Virus record (IMG/VR): IMGVR_UViG_3300047462_000344
Location: 64,001-89,377 of that record
DNA from: a virus
Strand: one strand, 5' to 3'
Length of the DNA stretch: 25,377 nt
This document shows positions 5,073 through 14,907 of this stretch, piece after piece. Both the position numbers and the translations under genes were made by a program. Numbering within the stretch: the first letter of the stretch is position 1; the number at the start of each line of letters is the position of its first letter. Under the pieces are notes generated by a model. It did no database searches and had not been told where the DNA came from. It saw only the letters and a list, made by a program, of their open reading frames with translations.

Positions 5073-6776
5073 TCAGTCCCATTCATCATCCTCTTCCGGC
5101 GGGGGCGGTTTGGGAATCACCTTCGCCAGTTCCGCCTCCGTAAAGTCCCATAGGGCCTGGCTGACCTGGGGTGGTTTCGCCATCACACCAACCCACGATC
5201 CGCGGCAGTTGTGCACCACGAAGCCGCCGGCCACGTAGCTTTCGTCTTCGGCCACAGCGAAATTATAGAGCTTGGCGTTCGTCACCTTGCGGCGCGTTAG
5301 TGCCACCACGTCGAGATGGCCAAACACGTACGCGCCGTCGTGGTTCATGGCCACGGAGCAGTATCGAACGTCCTGAAATTTGAGATTGATGAACGGCCGC
5401 TCGCACGTCGGGCAGACCTTGGCCAGCGCGGCGATCTTGTCGCCCACGACAAGCTGGCCAGACGGAACCCACCCACGCGCGGTCATGACGGGGTGTTCGC
5501 CCGTCGTGGCCGGAAGCGTCGCTTTGTTTCGACCGTTGAATGTAGCCCGGGCGCCATGCACGACGCCGGTATGGCTCACGCCTTTCAACACCCATGTGAC
5601 GGGCCGAAAATGCCCACGGTGCGTAAGCACCGAATCGCCGACAGCAATCTCCGAAATGGGTTTCCATCCACCCGAGGTGTAGATCGGGATATGCGCATCG
5701 ACGAAGCAATGGGGGTGCTGCACCCCGGCGGCGGGCCACCACAACTCGGCGGGATCCCGGGGGACAAGCCCGGCCGCGGTCCGCTTCATCGGGGCGGCGA
5801 ACCGGCCCACATTGGTTTTCCCCTCCCACACCTCGGTATCGCCGTCGGGGAAGGGTTTGGTCGGGCTGACCACGGTGAAAATCTTGCCGTTGATTCGGGC
5901 GCAGAACGGGCACGCGCCCCGGTACGCCTCCATGCGCTTTACCTGCTGGCCAGGATTGATGGTGGAGATGAACCCTTGGTTCATCGCCTCCCCACATTCC
6001 GTCACGGCGATGCGCCGGCAGTCCCGGTTGAACTGGCCGAAATTATCGAACAGCCTGGTTTTCAGCCGTTCCGGGCTGCCTTCGCGCTGGCCCAGCACCA
6101 TGGCCTGGACATGCTCCAGCACGATGCCCCGCATCCGGCCCTTCATCCCCTCCGTGGCCTGCGTCACGGCCGATGCGGCGCGGGCCCGGGCGATGCGCAC
6201 CGTGGCGATTTCAACCGGCGTCAGAACGCGCGGCGGCACGGCCGCGAAGGTCGTCGGCACGAATTCGGCCAGGGCATTCATCTGGTCCGGCCGCAGCGGC
6301 GTCGCCACGGACGCGGCCTGGATTTTGCCGAGCAGGGCAGCCCGCACCACCATGTATTCGGCTTCCGTCTGGATCACGCCGTCGGGCAGATACCGCTGCA
6401 CGATATATTCGGCGGCGAGGAGCCAGTCATCGAGGCTCCAGGCCTCATGCGGCTTGGCGCGGAGATATTTCACCACCTCCTCAAACCGCATCACATCCCA
6501 GCGATGCCAGGGTTCGGTATCCTCCGCCTTGCGCAGCTCGCCGATCGGTTCGCCGAGGAGGAGCCGGGCGAACGCGTCCTGTAGCTTTTGAATGATGGCC
6601 TGGAGCCGCCTCGTAACGGCCTCAACGTGGCCGGCTATCCACGGGTTTTCATGGCGCGACCAAATCGTATCGTCATGGGCACCAGGCTCGGCCAGCGCCT
6701 TGACCATGTCCTCCAGGCACCCCTCGCAGTGCTCCTCAGGCACGCCAGACAGATCGATCAGGGCCGGCCGGATCAT
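5073..6776 (-). CDS. MuF/SPP1 gp7-type head morphogenesis protein containing an intein
   Basis: This 567-residue precursor has a MuF (SPP1 gp7) minor head protein as extein. The family segment runs from about residue 240: RIAVTECGEAMNQGF, then EAYRGACPFCARINGKIFTV, then LWWPAAGVQHPH, continuing after the intein as CRGSWVGV. Joining the exteins restores the conserved HPxCRGxW motif. The intein is residues 357-523 and is described separately. The spliced protein would be about 400 residues. MuF proteins sit at the portal and assist head assembly or DNA delivery. ATG 6776 overlaps the previous stop (ATGA). Portal and zeta-domain genes lie directly upstream, the usual late order. The C-terminus is acidic and proline rich (PPPPEEDDEWD). 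Confidence 0.88.
   Translation of the reverse strand: MIRPALIDLSGVPEEHCEGCLEDMVKALAEPGAHDDTIWSRHENPWIAGHVEAVTRRLQAIIQKLQDAFARLLLGEPIGELRKAEDTEPWHRWDVMRFEEVVKYLRAKPHEAWSLDDWLLAAEYIVQRYLPDGVIQTEAEYMVVRAALLGKIQAASVATPLRPDQMNALAEFVPTTFAAVPPRVLTPVEIATVRIARARAASAVTQATEGMKGRMRGIVLEHVQAMVLGQREGSPERLKTRLFDNFGQFNRDCRRIAVTECGEAMNQGFISTINPGQQVKRMEAYRGACPFCARINGKIFTVVSPTKPFPDGDTEVWEGKTNVGRFAAPMKRTAAGLVPRDPAELWWPAAGVQHPHCFVDAHIPIYTSGGWKPISEIAVGDSVLTHRGHFRPVTWVLKGVSHTGVVHGARATFNGRNKATLPATTGEHPVMTARGWVPSGQLVVGDKIAALAKVCPTCERPFINLKFQDVRYCSVAMNHDGAYVFGHLDVVALTRRKVTNAKLYNFAVAEDESYVAGGFVVHNCRGSWVGVMAKPPQVSQALWDFTEAELAKVIPKPPPPEEDDEWD
5208..5708 (-). other. Mini-intein (167 aa, Hint fold) inside the MuF protein
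   Basis: The insert starts with Cys (codon at 5708) in CFVDAHIPIYTSGGWKPISE, followed by a GDSVLTHRGHFRPVTWV block typical of Hint N-terminal motifs. It has TGEHPVMT, which fits the conserved block-B His, then a KLYNFAVAEDESYVAGGFVV block, and ends in HN before Cys+1 of the C-extein. There is no LAGLIDADG endonuclease. Between the two Hint halves lies VCPTCERPFINLKFQDVRYC, a CxxC pair plus a further Cys resembling a zinc knuckle. The insertion splits the conserved HPxC motif of the head protein, so splicing should be needed for a functional product. Confidence 0.85.
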
Positions 6777-6874
6777 TTCCGAGTGTCGATCGCCTTGGCG
6801 AACAGGATCAGCGGTTCACCGCTGATGGTGTCTGGCGCTTGCGCGCCCGTGAAAACGATGCGCGCCGCAGCCAT
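6773..6874 (-). CDS. Possible separately started 33-residue ORF at the 3' end of the zeta frame
   Basis: Within the 3' end of the long zeta-domain frame, ATG 6874 is preceded by GAAGGGA at ideal spacing, much better than expected by chance. The frame encodes MAAARIVFTGAQAPDTISGE and ends ILFAKAIDTRK, with a stop that overlaps the MuF start as ATGA. The composition looks like real protein. It may be a separate small gene coupled to MuF, or simply the tail of the larger protein. Confidence 0.4.
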   Translation of the reverse strand: MAAARIVFTGAQAPDTISGEPLILFAKAIDTRK

Positions 6875-8803
6875 GTCGGTCCCTTCGGTTAGATTGCCGT
6901 CTCCGGCGCCTTCCGCCTTTTCCATGTCGCGCGCCGGTTCGTAGGCGCCTCGGTATCCGGGGGGGAACCCGCCGCTTCCATGCGTGCCCAGCGTGCGCGG
7001 ATATGGTCCGGTACCAGTTCGTCCCGGCCTGTCTCGATCAGCGGCCGGCAATCCTGATAGTCCGCGTTCTCCTCCGTCAGCTTCATTCTTCTTCTCCGAA
7101 ATCAGGCGAGGCTCAGCCCCCTTGGCGACATTATTGTCGCGGAATGACCAAGCGTCAACCATGGGTTTTATGGCGTCGAAATTGGCCTCGTTCGCGGTGT
7201 TCGACAAGATCACGGCTGGCGGCACGTACCGCTTCGTCTTCCCCAGGAAGCGGCCCACCGCCCGCTTCGCCTTCGTCTTCCCCAGGAAGCGGCCCACCGC
7301 CCGCTTCGCCGCTTCTTGTCTGGGTAGATGCATGTAGTGCGCTTCCACCCTGTATCCGGATTCCTTGAATTTTTTGACCAGTGCCGTCGCCTTGGCGCCG
7401 GTTTTCAGCGTCGCGTCATGCACGATATTCAAACCCGCTTTGTGGGCGATGCGGGTGATTTCGTCGAATATATCCCCCGATTCCTCGTGCACTTGGGCTG
7501 CGTTCCACCCCTTGTATTCGGGCAGCATCTGCTTGATTTCGTCGGCGTCCAGCACGATCGCCTTCGCGGGATCGTACACCTTACCGGCAAACCAACTCTT
7601 ACCAGACCCTCCGCGGCCACCCAGAATCGTGAATGTCGGCCTTTGACCCTTCGCAGGGGTGGCGGCGGCGACCGCCTTTTCGGACAGAATGTGTCCAACG
7701 ATTTTCTGGTGCAGTTTGACGCGTTCCGGCGTCCACTTCCCGTCTTTCTTATGAGCATCAATGGTCTGGTCGAGCTTGGCAATGTCGGCCTCGACGTCAC
7801 GTATCCTATCCGCCGTATCTGGCGGGAAAGACGCCAGAACCGATTCGGGAGATACCGCGGCATCATCGTGGCCCCTCGCAAAACTGGCTGCGGAGAACTG
7901 CTCGGGGTCCACCGGTCCTGTCGGCGCGGCCCCGCCGGGCGTTGCGGGCGGCGCTTCCGGCGGTGCGGCGGCCGGCACCGGCTCGCCTTCCGCGCCAGGC
8001 ACAGGGCCGGTGAGGTGTTCGTGCCGCACGGCCTGCTCGGTGCCATCTGGCTTGCGCAGCGTCACGCCATGCAGGCCGGAGGCGACGATATGCCCCTCCC
8101 CCTGGACCAAGCCATGCTGATACCCAACCTTGTCGCCATGCTTCATCGGCGAGCCTGGCCCGCCCGTCGTCGGGTTTTCCGGCGTCGGCTTTTGCTCCCC
8201 GGGCACTCCCTTGTCAGTCCGCTCCCATCGCTTCGTCTGGTGGCCGAGCTTGTCCGTCACAGGTTCCAGCGCCAGACCGGGCCGGTTCGCTATGCCGCCG
8301 GCGCCCGCTGCCGCATCCGCCTTGAAGAACATGGCGCGTGCCAGGACAGGCATGCGGGGCGGCGGCGCATCCAGGTCGGCCAGGACGGCACCCAGCGCCT
8401 TGCGCATCTCCTTCAACCCGCCGAGCAGCGGATCGTCGGTTTTCCGATCGGGCAGGTTCGGCGAGCCTTCATAGTCCTGGGCGGCCGTGACGTAGGTCTC
8501 GCCGGCGCCACCCTTCCCCTCTTTCTCGACCGTGGCGAGGTAGCGGGTCGCGCCGGTATGGTCCCGCACCAGCATGCCGTCGGCGCCGGTGTCGAGCACG
8601 TCAACACCACGATCGACCCGGGCTTTGTGGCCCAGATAGGACGCGGTGGGGAAGCCATGCGCGGTCTTCCCGTCATGGCCCATGAACCCGTCCTTACCCT
8701 TCGCCACGACCCGCACCGCGACGGGTCCGCGCTCGGGATGCGTCGCAAAGACATGGTCCCCGATTTCGATGCCGGAGCCGGCCTGCTTATCCTTGGCACC
8801 CAT
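6773..8803 (-). CDS. Head-associated protein with zeta-toxin kinase domain
   Basis: The 676-residue frame has an SH3-like N-terminal segment (IEIGDHVFATHPERGPVAVR), a second similar segment near 222-266 (KHGDKVGYQHG ... HEHLTG), a Pro/Ala-rich linker (270-300), a helical stretch and a zeta-type P-loop kinase domain from about 385 to 570. Walker A is GGRGGSGKS (395-403), followed by VLDADEIKQMLPEY and a VHDATLKTG strand. Zeta toxins phosphorylate UDP-N-acetylglucosamine; phage head-linked versions have no proven substrate. There is no epsilon antitoxin gene beside it, and it sits between portal and MuF, so a virion or delivery role is more likely than a toxin-antitoxin pair. The start overlaps the portal stop (TGATG). 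A 13-residue tandem duplication lies at 499-524, and the tail after residue 572 conflicts with a better coding frame. Confidence 0.8.
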   Translation of the reverse strand: MGAKDKQAGSGIEIGDHVFATHPERGPVAVRVVAKGKDGFMGHDGKTAHGFPTASYLGHKARVDRGVDVLDTGADGMLVRDHTGATRYLATVEKEGKGGAGETYVTAAQDYEGSPNLPDRKTDDPLLGGLKEMRKALGAVLADLDAPPPRMPVLARAMFFKADAAAGAGGIANRPGLALEPVTDKLGHQTKRWERTDKGVPGEQKPTPENPTTGGPGSPMKHGDKVGYQHGLVQGEGHIVASGLHGVTLRKPDGTEQAVRHEHLTGPVPGAEGEPVPAAAPPEAPPATPGGAAPTGPVDPEQFSAASFARGHDDAAVSPESVLASFPPDTADRIRDVEADIAKLDQTIDAHKKDGKWTPERVKLHQKIVGHILSEKAVAAATPAKGQRPTFTILGGRGGSGKSWFAGKVYDPAKAIVLDADEIKQMLPEYKGWNAAQVHEESGDIFDEITRIAHKAGLNIVHDATLKTGAKATALVKKFKESGYRVEAHYMHLPRQEAAKRAVGRFLGKTKAKRAVGRFLGKTKRYVPPAVILSNTANEANFDAIKPMVDAWSFRDNNVAKGAEPRLISEKKNEADGGERGLSGLPAADRDRPGRTGTGPYPRTLGTHGSGGFPPGYRGAYEPARDMEKAEGAGDGNLTEGTDMAAARIVFTGAQAPDTISGEPLILFAKAIDTRK
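6889..7086 (-). CDS. 65-residue ORF nested in the 3' end of the zeta gene
   Basis: ATG 7086 follows a purine-rich GAGAAGAAGA. The protein begins MKLTEENADYQDCRPLIETG and continues with a charged helix (DELVPDHIRARWARMEA). Over the first 20 codons, third positions are G or C in 17 of 20 in this frame, but in only 7 of 20 codons of the overlapping zeta frame, so this is the better coding frame there. It ends 14 bases before the next ATG. Its last 20 residues, after a run of seven Cs, look less natural. No family is recognised. Confidence 0.5.
   Translation of the reverse strand: MKLTEENADYQDCRPLIETGRDELVPDHIRARWARMEAAGSPPDTEAPTNRRATWKRRKAPETAI
7232..7309 (-). repeat. 39-bp perfect tandem duplication in the zeta gene
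   Basis: Two identical 39-base units (7232-7270 and 7271-7309) repeat the 13 residues AKRAVGRFLGKTK. The length keeps the frame. Perfect identity, including silent positions, points to a recent event, or to an assembly artefact. Confidence 0.95.
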
Positions 8804-10593
8804 CAGCCCGGCGCCCCAACCGACCAGATCACCGCCGCCTCGCTCAGCGCCTTACCGAAATCCTGTTGCGGGGGCTGCTCCGCACCCGGACCAGCGCCCG
8901 GGTTGTCCTGTGCGTCTTCGCCAGAATCGCCATTTTCGCCACCGGCATCCCCGCCCGGTTCATCGCCGCCACCAACTCCATCGCCTTGCGGTTTGGCGGC
9001 CCGGCCGAACCCTTCATCCCCGCCACCCTGGCCGTAATCGGGCTGTTGCTGGGGCGGGGGTTGCTGCGATGCCTGCCACGCCGCCATCAGCGACGGGTTG
9101 AGCGGGGCAGACCCCAGCGCCGGAACAGGGAATGGCGGGTCGCCACGGCGGAGCCGCAACTCATCCACGGTGAGGCAGAGCTTGTCCTCCTCCCATTTCT
9201 GCTTCGGGTCCTGCTCATCCAGTCCAACCCAGCGGAAGCAGAGGCGCGGATCGAAGCCGGATATGATGAAATCCGATATCGTCGCCTCATAGAACGAGAG
9301 CAGCGGGCGCAACCCCTTGTCATGGGATTCCGACAGTTTCTCCTCGGTATCGGACCCGGACAGGCCGGATTTCTGGGCGGCGAAACTCTCGAAATTCACC
9401 TCGTCAGGCGCCATGCCGTAGATTGCGCAGACGATAGACGTCAGAAACGTCATCCATTTCGAGAACGCCATCTCGCTGAACTCGATGCCGAACCGCTCGA
9501 AACTGGCCTTGCTTTGCTCATCTTTGCTGACCATGACGGGCAGGGACCAAGCATTGTTGATGCCCTTCACCATCATGTTCCAGTAGCGCCGGAACGCGAC
9601 CAAATCCTCCTCGGAATAGTCGCCGGTGAGGTGCAGCAACCCCTTCGGGATGGCGTTCTGGTCGAAGCCGGCGATATTATACTGCATCGCGTTCAGGATG
9701 CCGGTGATCACCCGGATCATCAGTTCCGGCTCACCCATGCCGTAGCCGGCGCGCACCACCTCGGTTTGCGGGTTGCGCACCTCGTAAATGAGCTGCTCGT
9801 ACGTGTAGGAGCAGGCGATGCGGCCCTGGACCAACTGTATGGCGTAGATCGCGTCATCGCCCTCGTAGCCCTGCTCGGTGCAGAGCCGGATCGTGGCGCC
9901 GTCCGGGGCGTAGAACCCATCTATGCCCAGCGCCCGGTTGCGCTTCATCTCGGTTTCGATCGGGCTGGCATCCATGGACAGGGAGTCGGCGACGGACTTC
10001 GCCATGAACTGGGTGAAGTTGTCCCGGCGCATCGCCTTCCGGCGCCGCGGGTCGAACTCCATGCCGCAATTCTGAATGAACCTGGTGAGCAGCTTGGCGC
10101 CTTCCGCCTCGTCCCCCTCCAGCTTCGTTTTCCGGTCCTGGTGGCGAATCTCGAACCCCATCCCGCCATCCTCGGACGGCGAGCAGAACCGGCTGACCTG
10201 CCGCACCCTGGTCATGACGACGGCGGACAGGATCGGCGTGGCCCGGACCAGGTTGCGCAGCCCGTCGAAATCCAGGTCGCACGGCTTCTCGTAATAGTCG
10301 CCGGACTGGTAGATTTGCTGCTCATCGAGATAGACGGACCGCATCCCGTCCCGCGGCGGATTGTTCATCCGGCCAGGGAACTGAATGACCTGCCCGCTCG
10401 CCTTCATCATGGCCGCGTCGGCTTGCTGGTTCTCGATGAACCGGATGATCGGCATGATATCGGCCGACGGGATCAGGCCGCTATTCGTGGGGCGGTGCGC
10501 GCGTTGCAATTCCGCCTGGGCGTCGAAGCGTTCCGATGCCGGCGCGGAAGGATTGAACGCGACGGAGCGAGCATCATCTGGCATACCAGTCAC
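8803..10593 (-). CDS. Phage portal protein
   Basis: The protein (596 residues) matches phage portals in length, order and motif. RNLVRATPILSAVVMTRVRQ is the usual N-terminal helix region, SYTYEQLIYEVRNP and GMGEPELMIRVITG mark the body, and FLTSIVCAIYGMAPDEVNFE is the conserved C-terminal block. Portals form the dodecameric ring through which DNA enters and leaves the head. From about residue 515 the tail is rich in Gln, Pro, Gly and Asp. The first possible start is GTG 10593 with ATG 10584 three codons later; neither has a clear ribosome site. An inverted repeat CCAGTC/GACTGG (10586-10591 and 10605-10610) overlaps the start region. The zeta-domain gene follows with a TGATG overlap. The gene diverges from the plus-strand cassette. 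Confidence 0.93.
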   Translation of the reverse strand: MTGMPDDARSVAFNPSAPASERFDAQAELQRAHRPTNSGLIPSADIMPIIRFIENQQADAAMMKASGQVIQFPGRMNNPPRDGMRSVYLDEQQIYQSGDYYEKPCDLDFDGLRNLVRATPILSAVVMTRVRQVSRFCSPSEDGGMGFEIRHQDRKTKLEGDEAEGAKLLTRFIQNCGMEFDPRRRKAMRRDNFTQFMAKSVADSLSMDASPIETEMKRNRALGIDGFYAPDGATIRLCTEQGYEGDDAIYAIQLVQGRIACSYTYEQLIYEVRNPQTEVVRAGYGMGEPELMIRVITGILNAMQYNIAGFDQNAIPKGLLHLTGDYSEEDLVAFRRYWNMMVKGINNAWSLPVMVSKDEQSKASFERFGIEFSEMAFSKWMTFLTSIVCAIYGMAPDEVNFESFAAQKSGLSGSDTEEKLSESHDKGLRPLLSFYEATISDFIISGFDPRLCFRWVGLDEQDPKQKWEEDKLCLTVDELRLRRGDPPFPVPALGSAPLNPSLMAAWQASQQPPPQQQPDYGQGGGDEGFGRAAKPQGDGVGGGDEPGGDAGGENGDSGEDAQDNPGAGPGAEQPPQQDFGKALSEAAVIWSVGAPG

Positions 10594-10636
10594 GATGGCG
10601 TCACGACTGGCGTGGCGCCCCGAGGAGCAGTTAACG

Positions 10637-11008
10637 ATGTGGACCTATTCCCAGACGACCGGCAATTTGGCTAGAGATGGCGTGTTCAAAGGGAAAGGCT
10701 ATTCAGGTAATGGCCGCGGCCTGAATAACCCCATCGCCCAGAACATCCACGGCATCGGGCCTATCCCACGCGGCACGTATCAGATCGGACAGCCACACCA
10801 GCCACATACACACATGGGTATTCTTGTTTTCCCCCTTTACCCGGCGGAATCCAACGCCATGGCCGGCCGGACCGGGTTTTTTATCAAAGACCCGGGGGAT
10901 GATGCACCATTGTCGTATCAGAATGGCGCGGACGGTATTGCGCTCACCCTTGCGTTACGCGAGCAAATCCTGGCCAGCGGTGATTTCGCCATCGAAGTGA
11001 CAGAATAG
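10637..11008 (+). CDS. DUF2778 (tlde1-like) domain protein, apparently without its catalytic residues
   Basis: The 123-residue plus-strand protein shows the front half of a DUF2778 domain clearly: FKGKGYSGNGRGLNNP, then GPIPRGTY (41-48), then a GILVFPLYP strand and AGRTGFFI. Family enzymes cut or exchange peptidoglycan peptide bonds and need a His after this strand (usually IHGD) and a Cys in an S/A-x-GC motif. Here the positions read IKDP (83-86) and NGADGIAL (97-103), so both the His and the Cys look absent. ATG 10637 follows GAGGAG. It is the first gene of a two-gene cassette running against the late operon. A binding or inhibitory protein, for example one blocking superinfection or cell-wall enzymes, is possible. 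The fold call is good; loss of activity is judged by eye without an alignment. Confidence 0.65.
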   Translation: MWTYSQTTGNLARDGVFKGKGYSGNGRGLNNPIAQNIHGIGPIPRGTYQIGQPHQPHTHMGILVFPLYPAESNAMAGRTGFFIKDPGDDAPLSYQNGADGIALTLALREQILASGDFAIEVTE

Positions 11009-11035
11009 GCTTTTCTCCGATGCGCTTCCGTGATA

Positions 11036-11051
11036 GGTGCGCTGCCGCACC
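11036..11051. promoter_or_regulatory. 16-bp palindrome, second copy of the operator-like site
   Basis: GGTGCG-CTGC-CGCACC lies in the short gap between the two plus-strand genes, just before the ribosome site of the second. It has the same half-sites and spacing as 4994-5009, and both copies are preceded by ATA on the plus strand (ATAGGTGCG, three variable bases, CCGCACC). In RNA it would also form a 6-bp hairpin upstream of the GAGGAG site. Confidence 0.55.
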
Positions 11052-11065
11052 CTGAGGAGCGTGAT

Positions 11066-11653
11066 ATGCCTATTCCTACACCCACCCCAGGGCTAGACCC
11101 TTGGCGTCTCATCGAATTGTTGCTTGACCAGGAGGAAACTCTCCTCCGCCAGCAGGCGCAGCTCGTCGAGACGATCCGGCAGTTGATCGGCCAGCCGGGC
11201 AAACCAGTGTCGATCGTGCTTATCAACCCCAAAACCGGAGAGGTTTTTCCACCCATGGCGAACTTTGAACTTCTGAATGACGGCTCGACGGCGATTCCGA
11301 TCGGCGAAGCCAATGCCGGCGGCGTGGTCGTCCCGATCGAAACGGGCGACACGTTCCAGGCCTCCAACACATCGACCCTTGGTCTCGTATCGACGATCGG
11401 CCTGATGGCCGACGGTGTTACCCCTGCCCTGATCCTGACCCCAGCCGCCGGCGAACTCGAAACCGGCGTCGTGGTGACTGTTACCGATACCGACAAGCTG
11501 AAATCGGCCACGCTGACCGTGGACGTCGTCGCCGACCTGACCCCCGTCGCCGTGGTGCTGAATACCGCCGGCGCCGTGTTCACGCCGAACGCGCAGAGCC
11601 AGGCCGAGGTGGCCAAGGCGAAACCCGAACCGGCCACCACCGCCAAAGCATAA
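11066..11653 (+). CDS. Hypothetical protein with N-terminal coiled coil and Ig-like beta domain
   Basis: ATG 11066 follows GAGGAG. The 195-residue protein starts with a Pro/Thr-rich leader, then a Gln/Leu/Glu-rich helix (LIELLLDQEETLLRQQAQLV) likely to form a coiled coil. From about residue 50 there is a beta-rich region with Gly/Thr/Val repeats (LNDGSTAIPIGEAN, ATLTVDVVADLTPVAV) resembling bacterial Ig-like folds of virion or surface proteins. The Ala/Lys/Pro-rich tail is unstructured. No signal peptide is visible. It is the second and last gene of the plus-strand cassette and is followed closely by a strong terminator. It might be a decoration or attachment protein, but no family match is claimed. 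Confidence 0.7.
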   Translation: MPIPTPTPGLDPWRLIELLLDQEETLLRQQAQLVETIRQLIGQPGKPVSIVLINPKTGEVFPPMANFELLNDGSTAIPIGEANAGGVVVPIETGDTFQASNTSTLGLVSTIGLMADGVTPALILTPAAGELETGVVVTVTDTDKLKSATLTVDVVADLTPVAVVLNTAGAVFTPNAQSQAEVAKAKPEPATTAKA

Positions 11654-11681
11654 GCAGCAGCAGCGAGACAAACGACGATCA

Positions 11682-11710
11682 GGCCCGGGGAGCGATCCCC
11701 GGGCCTTTTT
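11682..11710 (+). terminator. Rho-independent terminator of the plus-strand cassette
   Basis: A perfect 9-bp stem GGCCCGGGG / CCCCGGGCC encloses a six-base loop and is followed directly by TTTTT. It lies 29 bases after the stop at 11653 and closes the two-gene cassette. In the minus direction the stem lacks a T-run. Confidence 0.9.
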
Positions 11711-11789
11711 CGTTTCGCGCTATTCAGTGATTTGGGCGGCCCGACCGTCGGCTGATCGGCCTGATATGTGCGGCACACCCCGCCGCGAA

Positions 11790-11930
11790 TCAGAACTGAA
11801 GTGCTAGTGGGCCAGAAGCTATCGGTGGACCTGCCACCCCATCCCAGCTATTGAGCGTCCCATCTTGCCCACCGCACAGTCGGTTCGTCGTCGCATTGGG
11901 GTTGGTCAGTATGATGCCCCGACCAACCAA
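11790..11930 (-). CDS. Possible 46-residue beta-rich protein
   Basis: A TTG start at 11930 has AAGGGA about ten bases upstream and lies seven bases after the stop of the small membrane gene. The peptide (GIILTNPNATTNRLCGG, then SWDGVAGPPIASGPLALQF) resembles the C-terminal beta segment of small phage decoration-type proteins that end in a PIxxGxxLxL strand. It could be a small intact gene, or the remnant of a longer one that lost its front. It sits at the tail of the minus-strand unit facing the plus-strand terminator. Confidence 0.4.
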   Translation of the reverse strand: MVGRGIILTNPNATTNRLCGGQDGTLNSWDGVAGPPIASGPLALQF

Positions 11931-11937
11931 GGCACGC

Positions 11938-12105
11938 TTATCCCTTGCGTGGCTTTACCTGTCTCCAGACAAGGTAGCCGATCATCACGAATTCTACCGC
12001 AATCAGTGTGTGCCCCCCTACGTAAACCGCCCATGCGCAAAGGCTTAGCGGGCCGCACGACGGCGGGGGCATGTATGGTGCGAAGGGTGGTGGCGTCATC
12101 GTCAT
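11938..12105 (-). CDS. Small membrane protein, 55 aa
   Basis: ATG 12105 is preceded by GGAAGGAAACGCT, a strong ribosome site that decides the start; the same frame is open upstream to 12228 but has no such site there. The protein has a Pro/Met-rich N-terminus (MTMTPPPFAPYMPPPS), a hydrophobic region of about 30 residues (LCAWAVYVGGHTLIAVEF, then VMIGYLVW) and a basic end. One or two membrane spans are likely. It lies 159 bases after the terminase gene; that gap holds no feature I can support. Confidence 0.6.
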   Translation of the reverse strand: MTMTPPPFAPYMPPPSCGPLSLCAWAVYVGGHTLIAVEFVMIGYLVWRQVKPRKG

Positions 12106-12264
12106 AGCGTTTCCTTCCCAAAAGTCGAGACCGGACCCGTTGCGATCCGGGGGCGGGTGGGGACGCCGCCTACACTCCATGCAATCCATGGCTTCGCTAA
12201 CCAAGGATTTTCCCGTGTAACGCCCCACGCTTGGCGTCCTACCGGTCTCAAAACGACCATATAC

Positions 12265-14313
12265 TCATTTCGGCGCAGCATGGAAGAGGATGCAGCCAAT
12301 ATCTTTTGCTCTCACCCTCAGGCCGCGCTCGGCGCAGTTTCCTCCCCCGAAATGCTGGCACGCACCGCATGTCCCCACGACAGGCTCCTCCATCATGCGC
12401 AGGATGTGGCTTGGTACGCCGTGCATGGCTTTCTCGACCCGCTCCGCCAACGTGCCGGGGCCGCGGCGATCCAGCTTCGGGTCACTGGGCAAAATAACCA
12501 ACCCCGTCCCGTGCGCGCGCGCCCACGCCACATCGCACAGCATATTGGCGTAGGAGGTGTGCGGGTCGATACCGACCTTGACGACGCGCCGCCGAAACTT
12601 TTTCTGCTCGGGGTCCCGCTCCGCGATCAGTGCGGTGCGTTGGAAGTGCAGGAAGGCCACGTCCTTCAAGACAGCCGAAGGGCGCATGATTCCCTTCTCC
12701 ATCACTTCCTGCACCCGGCCGGCCGGGTCGGGCATCAGCAGAATCGGTGGGTTGGCCGTGATGCGCTTCATGGCCACGTCCATGGCCTTGTATTGGTCGA
12801 TCGATACGGTCCATCTGTCCCGGTCCTCCTCAGTGGTGTGTTTCTCGTTGGCGTCCATCTTGCGGCCGTCGTTCCAGCGGATCATGCCGTCCGTGATGTC
12901 CACATACGACCCTACGGTGAAGACGCGGCGGGGGTGCCGGCCCGCGAACCGCTTCGCGTCATTATAGTTCGGCAATTGCTCAACGACGCAGATATCGACC
13001 CCATACAGGTCCATCAGCACCGAGCAGCGCGCGAATGGGTCCGGGTCGTAGATGTATTCGAGGTGGATCAGGGCCTGCCGGTTATCGGGCAGCCGTTCCT
13101 TGATCACCACCACGTTGAACGCACCCATCTGGTCGATGCCCATGAAGGTATGCGCGGCCCGGTCCTTCCACTTCACCCCCGCCTCCGCGCCGGCGGCGAC
13201 GCACCGGTTCAACGCGGCTTGGTCAACCGGAATCTGGGACGGGTCCATGAAGGGCTTGCCCAGCTTGCGGTTGTAGAAATTCATCATGTCCTCGGCGTTG
13301 AGGTACGCCTCCATGATTTCGCGCGGGCTGATCGACGGGGACAGGAATTGGGTGAAGTGAATCGACTCGATCCGCGCGTCCGGGAATTTGGCGATCCATT
13401 CCCCATCCTGCGCATCGTCTATCCAGGCCCCGCAGCCGACACATACATACCGGTAATCGCCCTGCCGCCCGTCATAGGTGACCGCCTCCTCATCGAAGCC
13501 GATGCATTTCGGGAACACCTCATCCATGATCTGCGAGGCGCCGCAGGCCCGGCAGGCGGTGTGAAACTGCCAGCACTTCCCCTTTTTGTAGAAGAAATGA
13601 ATATCGGAATCTGGCCATTTCGCCGTGCTGCCCATCAGGGTGAACTTGATACGTGACGCGGAGACGCGCTCCATCGTCTTTTCCATATCCTTGATTTTCA
13701 TTTCCTGGACTTCGTCGAAGCTCAACGCGTCCATGGGGTGCGATTCGGTCGTTATCCGGCCCGTGGTGTGCAGGAAGTAGAACAGTGACCCGCCCATGCG
13801 CCGCGTCATCACGTTGCCCTCGCCGCCCCGCTTGCCAGATGGCGTGGCGGCGGACAGGGCGGCCGACGCGAGCAGGCGGTTATAGGCCTGAGGGATCGAC
13901 CGGATGATGGGTAGAAATCGCTCGCTCGATTTGAGCTGCGCCACGTCTTGGCCTGGCAGATACATTCCGATTTTGCAGGGGTCGAATTTCAGGGCGAGGT
14001 AGATCATGGCGAGCATCTCCATGACCGTGAACCCGACCTGGCTGCATTTCATCAGGACGACGGTTTTCTTGAAGGCTTCCTCCAGGGTCGAAGGAATCAT
14101 GTCGTAGATGAAGTGCATCGCTGGCCGATCGTCGAGTTGGAACGGCAGCCCATCCACTTTCAGCCCATCGGCGGCGAGTTGCTCGCACCACTGCCGGAAC
14201 GTCACCCCATCCGGAATCGCGGACGTTTCCGCCACGCCGAGCCTGTCCCGCATTGCGGCAAGGCGGGCCGCCAGCTTTTCCAGCGCGCGGGGCAGCAGGG
14301 GGAGTTTTGCCAC
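12265..14313 (-). CDS. Terminase large subunit, GpA-like
   Basis: The 682-residue protein is the motor-nuclease that cuts and pumps phage DNA into heads. The ATPase part shows a non-classical Walker A KCSQVGFT (89-96), as in lambda GpA-like terminases, and a Walker B with the acidic pair in MDALSFDEVQEM (194-205). A zinc-binding insertion has CRAC (254-257) and CVGC (291-294). The nuclease domain begins around MGIDQMGAFNVVVIKE. The last 40 residues carry another cysteine group (GTCGACQHF, then NCAERG and GCILF). ATG 14313 lies three bases after the stop of the probable small subunit. It is the late-operon gene upstream of the membrane gene and the plus-strand cassette. Confidence 0.93.
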   Translation of the reverse strand: MAKLPLLPRALEKLAARLAAMRDRLGVAETSAIPDGVTFRQWCEQLAADGLKVDGLPFQLDDRPAMHFIYDMIPSTLEEAFKKTVVLMKCSQVGFTVMEMLAMIYLALKFDPCKIGMYLPGQDVAQLKSSERFLPIIRSIPQAYNRLLASAALSAATPSGKRGGEGNVMTRRMGGSLFYFLHTTGRITTESHPMDALSFDEVQEMKIKDMEKTMERVSASRIKFTLMGSTAKWPDSDIHFFYKKGKCWQFHTACRACGASQIMDEVFPKCIGFDEEAVTYDGRQGDYRYVCVGCGAWIDDAQDGEWIAKFPDARIESIHFTQFLSPSISPREIMEAYLNAEDMMNFYNRKLGKPFMDPSQIPVDQAALNRCVAAGAEAGVKWKDRAAHTFMGIDQMGAFNVVVIKERLPDNRQALIHLEYIYDPDPFARCSVLMDLYGVDICVVEQLPNYNDAKRFAGRHPRRVFTVGSYVDITDGMIRWNDGRKMDANEKHTTEEDRDRWTVSIDQYKAMDVAMKRITANPPILLMPDPAGRVQEVMEKGIMRPSAVLKDVAFLHFQRTALIAERDPEQKKFRRRVVKVGIDPHTSYANMLCDVAWARAHGTGLVILPSDPKLDRRGPGTLAERVEKAMHGVPSHILRMMEEPVVGTCGACQHFGGGNCAERGLRVRAKDIGCILFHAAPK

Positions 14314-14316
14314 GCG

Positions 14317-14907
14317 CTACGCCCGCGCGTCCGCCACCATGGCAGACCAGCGCCGTAGCACCTCATCACGCGCGCCTGGCTGAAACTCATCCAGCACGGC
14401 CAACATGGCGTCGTGGAAACTGTCCAACTCCTCCTTTTCCAGCAATTGCTCATTGATGCGCCGCGCCTCGCCGATGCACTGGCGCAAATTGTTGCTGGCC
14501 TGGAGCAGAATCTTAGCGTTGCGGACGGCGCCATCAGGGTTGCGCGCGAACTTCATCACGTCGTTTATGGCCTGGATCGTTTCCAAGATTTTCTCGTACA
14601 CCGGCACCACGGCCGCCCGGCTGACCCGCCGCCCCGTCGGGGGCGCGACCCGGCGCGGCAGCTCCGCCACCGCCTCTTCCACCGCCGCGACGGGATCGAT
14701 GTTGGCGGAACCCGGGCCGAAGAAGTTCTCCCGCTCCAGCCGCGCCTTCACCGCCGCGATTCGCCGACGACATGTCGTATCGCTCACCCCCTTGCGGATG
14801 AACCTCTCCTTGAGGCGCGCCTGATTGAAGTCGGGCCCGTTGGTCCGAATCTCTTTCTCAATCGCTTCGTCAACCTCAGCGACGAGGGGGTGTGGCGCTT
14901 GCGGCAT
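14317..14907 (-). CDS. Probable terminase small subunit, 196 aa
   Basis: ATG 14907 overlaps the metallopeptidase stop by one base (TAATG). The N-terminal half has a helix-turn-helix-like stretch (NQARLKERFIRKGVSDTTCR, then RRIAAVKARLERE). A Pro/Arg linker follows, then a long helical segment (YEKILETIQAINDVMKFARN) and a charged helix (ARRINEQLLEKEELDSF) suited to oligomer formation. Small terminase subunits recognise packaging DNA and usually precede the large subunit, as here with three bases between. The sequence is not one I can assign to a named family, so the call rests on position, size and architecture. Confidence 0.6.
   Translation of the reverse strand: MPQAPHPLVAEVDEAIEKEIRTNGPDFNQARLKERFIRKGVSDTTCRRRIAAVKARLERENFFGPGSANIDPVAAVEEAVAELPRRVAPPTGRRVSRAAVVPVYEKILETIQAINDVMKFARNPDGAVRNAKILLQASNNLRQCIGEARRINEQLLEKEELDSFHDAMLAVLDEFQPGARDEVLRRWSAMVADARA

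Follow-up and report, generated by a model that had tools for sequence, protein, structure and literature searches.

Tlde1a is an L,D-transpeptidase effector of type VI secretion (PDB 7UMA). The enzyme carries the motif HX(14-17)(S/T)HGC, with H121, S128, H129 and C131 as the motif residues; R115 forms a salt bridge with the carboxylate of a bound D-amino acid, and G130 is the bottom of the pocket (PMC9638812). The corresponding domain, also designated DUF2778, occurs in phages. In Burkholderia phage JC1, the DUF2778 gene (gp41) is located two genes before the terminase gene and near the portal gene, and it is not among the moron genes named by the authors in the accessible text of that study (PMC9144972). 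Microviruses have been treated in PMC6030365 and PMC9239249; the latter, in its available part, considers peptidase genes located between VP1 and VP4 lysis-linked and does not mention DUF2778. We found no report of a catalytically dead Tlde1-family protein in the open-licence literature.

In this study, we analyzed a stretch of 25,377 nucleotides (the window), which spans bases 64001-89377 of a virus record 89,377 bases long (IMGVR_UViG_3300047462_000344). It contains a unit of two plus-strand open reading frames and a terminator, which is opposed to the minus-strand portal and terminase genes between which it sits. The features of this region are as follows.

8803-10593, minus strand: portal protein, flank (PHROG 12, E 4.9e-32)
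10622-10627, plus strand: ribosome-binding site GAGGAG of the Tlde1-domain gene, 9 nt 5' of the ATG (read from the sequence)
10637-11008, plus strand: Tlde1-domain (DUF2778) pseudoenzyme, 123 aa, no Cys (open reading frame, Pfam, PHROG, alignment, AlphaFold)
10886-10945, plus strand: rewritten active-site loop, codons 84-103, IKDPGD...NGADGIAL (conserved-column count, regional identity)
11054-11059, plus strand: ribosome-binding site GAGGAG of the second gene, 6 nt 5' of the ATG (read from the sequence)
11066-11653, plus strand: 195-aa orphan protein (open reading frame; relatives not found)
11681-11711, plus strand: intrinsic terminator at the end of the unit (stem 11681-11706, then a T run)
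12265-14313, minus strand: terminase large subunit, flank (PHROG 675, E 8e-84)

The terminator stem has 11 perfect pairs and a GCGA loop. Its fold over 11670-11720 has an energy of -30.4 kcal/mol (z = -4.65), and in a sequence scan it was the sole perfect stem of at least 10 pairs with a T run within the window. A scan of 10000-12500 revealed no sigma-70-like promoter, and Rfam gave no named RNA in 8000-14500. The codon score of the Tlde1-domain gene is positive; its GC content (55.9%) and GC3 (63.7, versus about 82 in portal and terminase) are low, which suggests a foreign source. Its neighbors, checked for type VI immunity and secretion genes, are the portal, terminase and orphan genes, and PADLOC detected no defence family. 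Comparison of the unit and its flanks with the DNA of relatives returned weak or chance-level matches only. The roughly 550 bases that separate the terminator from the terminase gene (11712-12264) contain no called gene, are not matched by Rfam and show no clear similarity to relatives. A perfect direct repeat (GTCACGA-4-GTCACGA, 10589-10606), which was picked post hoc, overlaps the portal start between the divergent genes; looser copies of it occur in the window no more often than expected by chance.

The first protein of the unit scored 32.1 bits with Pfam Tlde1_dom (PF10908; cut-off 30.1), in an alignment covering residues 20-57 only, whereas PHROG 24118 aligned across residues 1-121 (E 8.6e-20). 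A search of the virus record itself with the Tlde1 domain gave this protein 30.8 bits and found no second Tlde1 domain in the whole record, so there is no active one for it to counter. An AlphaFold model based on an 18-row alignment has an L,D-transpeptidase fold (pLDDT 85.8, pTM 0.81); it is weakest at residues 95-97, and the rewritten loop is its least confident part. When this model was compared with the PDB by Foldseek, Tlde1a and L,D-transpeptidases topped the list (E about 0.005-0.02; TM 0.70 for Tlde1a), and a second structural comparison placed Tlde1a (7UMA) first (Z 12.4, rmsd 2.2 over 113 residues, 20% identity). The best match among viral models was a Tlde1 domain-containing phage protein (TM 0.87), and a phmmer search against solved structures gave nothing credible. 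With a score above the Pfam cut-off and Tlde1a as the nearest solved structure, the protein belongs to the PF10908 family by descent. It has no signal peptide or membrane segment (maximum 19-residue Kyte-Doolittle mean, 1.15).

Homologues of this protein were collected with peptide patterns and alignments. All 40 translated homologue loci (35 distinct proteins from phages and bacteria, near-copies included) carry the motif HGD...S.GC. The scan patterns come from the N-terminal part, and for alignment A1 from the C-terminal helix as well; none lies in the catalytic loop, so the sample was not selected for intact active sites. Of the 50,697 records in the phage collection, 58 matched at E <=0.01; these came from jumbo phages of Erwinia, Dickeya and Yersinia and from a single Citromicrobium microvirus. 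From viral contigs, 23 loci were obtained with alignment A1, 11 with A10 and 13 with A12 (two of them new), and genome contigs yielded 3; no relative emerged from the first viral scan, which used only the window protein, or from the one based on alignment A3. The Tlde1 domain is present in 40 of 299 Pseudomonadota genomes. Thirty loci from these genomes were inspected: 28 matched the profile, all 28 with the Cys motif, and 2 had no profile match. The 32 plasmid records with Tlde1-domain genes are mostly from Pantoea, and in two plasmid matches (H182, H183) the match also overlaps a hypothetical-protein gene. In the microvirus (L006), the intact gene at 1328-1738 is annotated as hypothetical and is a candidate lysis gene.

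The genomic setting of the active phage relatives is no more than suggestive of a lysis-type neighborhood. Small hydrophobic genes account for 8 of 52 of their neighbors, as opposed to 3 of 98 other genes (in 5 of 19 loci; p 0.009, with some near-copies among them), and Pfam analysis of 31 neighbor genes of the relatives detected one lysozyme and no holin. This placement fits a wall-acting role of the active form. At an Acidobacteriaceae genome locus (L117, 4998-6019), an intact Tlde1-domain gene is followed by a phage-type lysozyme gene.

In the window protein alone, the family motif HGD...S.GC is replaced by IKDPGD...NGADGIAL. The protein is devoid of Cys and has His only at positions 38, 54, 57 and 59; different alignments place either Gly or Ala in the Cys column. 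The sequence I-H-G-D of the nearest bacterial relative aligns to I-K-(DP)-G-D, i.e., His is changed to Lys and two residues are inserted. The first-pass annotation, made from the sequence without database searches, had described a recognisable DUF2778 fold whose IHGD had become IKDP and whose catalytic His and Cys were gone. Pfam, PHROG, AlphaFold, Foldseek and the Z score to Tlde1a agree on the fold, and alignment with DUF2778/Tlde1 proteins confirms the loss of both residues; the IKDP detail needs correction, as DP is an insertion that accompanies the change of His to Lys, and G-D is retained. An intact His/Cys pair elsewhere was ruled out by the complete lack of Cys. A frameshift or a mis-start behind the motif loss was likewise ruled out: its alignment register with the family is kept on both sides of the loop (on the C-terminal side, over residues 104-123), and the other frames contain no motif. 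Judging by the residues lost, Cys-dependent L,D-carboxypeptidase or L,D-transpeptidase chemistry is excluded for this protein, and it is therefore not classed as a Tlde1 enzyme despite its descent. Codons 54-59 (10796-10813) encode HQPHTH, a run nearly private to this protein that, with the Asp residues gained in the loop, might form a metal site.

The loss does not extend beyond the loop. Columns at least 90% conserved (29 columns) were defined with 27 of 32 homologues, 5 having been removed at 95% identity. The window protein keeps 17 of 18 of these columns in residues 1-83 and 3 of 3 in residues 104-123, but 2 of 8 in residues 84-103 (20/21 outside the loop versus 2/8 inside; Fisher p = 0.0004), and the other homologue rows lose at most one of the eight loop columns. 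Identity between the window protein and L117 by region, with the loop as the third value, is 31/53, 12/29, 3/18 and 8/20. The corresponding values for pairs of intact-motif relatives are 30/53, 13/29, 9/18 and 8/20 (L117 and L130) and 33/53, 19/29, 12/16 and 9/20 (L117 and L129). By this measure, the core has drifted about as far as in the intact-motif relatives while the loop was rewritten. These data point to a pseudoenzyme and not to a gene in general decay. The end branch of the window protein is the longest in the tree (3.28; median, 0.27). With the loop omitted it is 2.03, near that of L028 (1.99) and below that of the microvirus protein L006 (3.72), a length that still leaves room for somewhat relaxed constraint. 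Arg78, six residues before the lost His, is invariant in the family; by its spacing in the sequence, rather than by superposition, it probably corresponds to R115 of Tlde1a.

The virus record encodes a phage integrase, RecT and contractile-tail genes (Baseplate_J, sheath initiator), and a GH108 gene and a GTA-type holin gene are located elsewhere in it. These genes suggest a temperate phage with a contractile tail, whose lysis-type genes lie away from the unit. The Tlde1-domain gene does not qualify as a phage lysis (endolysin) gene, because its catalytic residues are lost and the holin gene lies elsewhere, and the window copy has left the lysis-type setting of its active relatives. Other genes of the window include a Mom-family protein of DNA-modification type (1077-1664, E 4e-18) and a minor-head-type protein (6773-8803) with additional matches to P-loop ATPase and polynucleotide-kinase families. 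In the gene set that includes 6773-8803, Pfam gave one match each to Zeta_toxin and AAA_33, and Intein or Hint domain matches (best E 2.4e-07) belong to one gene among the window genes or L122:9779-16588.

Relatives of the phage were examined at the same genomic position. No Tlde1-domain relative occurred at the best 80 of 98 terminase loci taken from viral contigs or in 50 related phage records (0/50) drawn from 82 terminase/portal loci. The junction between terminase and portal was compared in 51 loci with both genes on the same strand (near-copies included; 3 of 54 loci with the genes on opposite strands were dropped), and genes in it were called with a simple caller. The distance between terminase and portal ranges from about 31 bp to 9.4 kb and is 31-89 bp in 11 of the 51 loci. 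Junction genes were called in 35 of 51 loci, with at least one opposed to the late strand in 29; altogether, 168 of 223 such genes run against the late strand and 55 along it. Pfam analysis of 192 of the 223 gave names mostly from DNA metabolism and regulation (25 of the 28 families of the second set being listed), including RdgC (8 members), SSB, HU-like proteins, dUTPase, DNA polymerase III beta, RtcB and AraC-type regulators. Records of this junction-variable phage group (L035-L114) reach about 98 kb. The junction is thus hypervariable, and the unit in the window is one of many fillings. An inverted two-gene cassette with ribosome sites and a perfect terminator, of the moron type, had been proposed in the first-pass annotation; both GAGGAG sites and the 11-pair stem are in place, and the unit's own terminator, odd GC content, absence from relatives and an integrase gene in the genome are in keeping with an accessory (moron-like) unit.

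The second gene of the unit has no relatives among phages, viral contigs, family libraries or the loci of relatives (best chance-level E 0.58-0.69). A conserved pairing of the Tlde1-domain gene with this orphan was considered and is unsupported, as orphan relatives were found nowhere searched. The single-sequence model of the orphan is poor (pLDDT 35), with a helix at 12-41; by eye, and with no tool in support, its C-terminal half resembles an immunoglobulin-type beta domain.

We propose that the Tlde1-domain protein is a pseudoenzyme kept for binding, and give this reading a probability of roughly 0.55. In this proposal, the fold of a Tlde1-type L,D-transpeptidase domain would still be constrained while the catalytic loop 84-103 was rewritten, the unit would be expressed apart from the late operon, and the protein would act by binding and not by cutting, binding being the simplest function for a retained fold. 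The likeliest ligand would be that of the ancestral pocket, a peptidoglycan stem peptide or D-amino-acid carboxylate, because Arg78 keeps the spacing of Tlde1a Arg115; alternatively, the protein may bind a partner such as the adjacent orphan. As no signal peptide is present, its action would take place in the cytoplasm, within virions, or once lysis has opened the membrane. Peptidoglycan would be met only after lysis, and precursors and proteins in the cytoplasm. The first-pass annotation had suggested that a dead wall enzyme could be a decoy, an immunity factor or a superinfection blocker. A periplasmic role in superinfection block or immunity in the lysogen would require export, and this reading is weakened by the missing signal peptide. 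It seems unlikely that the protein acts as a genuine decoy for, or competitor of, wall enzymes that are active. Still more doubtful is a reading in which the phage converted an antibacterial-type Tlde1 wall enzyme into a protein that no longer cuts but covers stem peptides or inhibits active Tlde1-like enzymes; such a decoy would be aimed at lysis enzymes of rival phages or type VI effectors of neighbors, be released at lysis or remain cytoplasmic, and have the orphan as its partner. Several points count against the binder reading: it concerns a single sequence, with no close relative showing selection after motif loss; the longest end branch and low GC3 would also be expected of a gene that was acquired recently and is loosely constrained; the Pfam alignment covers part of the protein; and a promoter was not found.

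In a different history, an active Tlde1-domain gene would have been recently acquired, would have been harmful or useless, and would have lost its active site first, the remainder not having decayed yet. Its low GC and GC3 relative to its neighbors, its branch length and its absence from the 50 relatives' records would all be expected of such a relic. However, six of eight loop columns are lost and two residues inserted while 20 of 21 core columns are kept, the core identity equals that of working pairs, the frame is open, and the ribosome site and terminator are intact. Moreover, relief from toxicity needs one inactivating change, and rewriting of the whole loop is more than that. We regard decay as improbable. 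An artifact of assembly or sequencing that made an active gene look dead could be imagined for a single record, but the frame is kept on both sides of many separate substitutions and an in-frame insertion, and no other frame holds the motif, which makes an error extremely improbable.

Two further explanations grant the protein a function of another kind. The loop might have become a new active or metal site, built from the gained K84, D85, D88, D89 and D99 together with H54-x-x-H57-x-H59 in a preceding loop, and could then bind a metal and acquire new chemistry. In the alignment, K84 and D85 occur in 0 of 32 relatives, and few or none of these have H57 and H59. Yet short runs of His and Asp occur by chance, and the rewritten loop is where the model is least confident; we consider a new site very doubtful. 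A scaffold or binding partner of the orphan, for example in an accessory virion or surface complex independent of peptidoglycan, would agree with the placement of both genes in one unit behind identical ribosome-binding sequences and with the N-terminal helix in the poor orphan model. Nevertheless, the orphan lacks relatives in any library or scan, so the pair is not seen elsewhere, and nothing ties either protein to virions; such a complex has little likelihood.

Pseudoenzymes derived from wall-active effectors would offer a simple route to immunity or sensing. Binding of muropeptides by the window protein is directly testable, because the protein is small, Cys-free and well predicted. Other accessory genes can be drawn from the terminase-portal junction, which is hypervariable in this phage group.

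Among the described systems, Tlde1a resembles the window protein in its fold over nearly the full length and in an Arg six residues before the position of the catalytic His. The window protein differs from it in lacking the catalytic His and Cys, in its 20% identity, and in being encoded by a phage gene between portal and terminase. The phage DUF2778 proteins (Erwinia, Dickeya and Yersinia jumbo phages and metagenomic phages, PHROG 24118) are of similar length, show about 33-45% identity and share with the window protein a core comprising the N-terminal W.Y.Q..G, GYSG.G, GP.P.G and GR..F, but all those examined have HGD...S.GC intact, and some of their genes are beside small hydrophobic open reading frames or a lysozyme gene. 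In gpB of the Citromicrobium microvirus vB_Cib_ssDNA_P1, the same domain occurs at 29% identity with an intact motif, although in a 4.4-kb ssDNA phage and beside a capsid gene. Finally, gp41 of JC1, compared by position, lies near terminase and portal like the gene in the window, but on the strand of the terminase.
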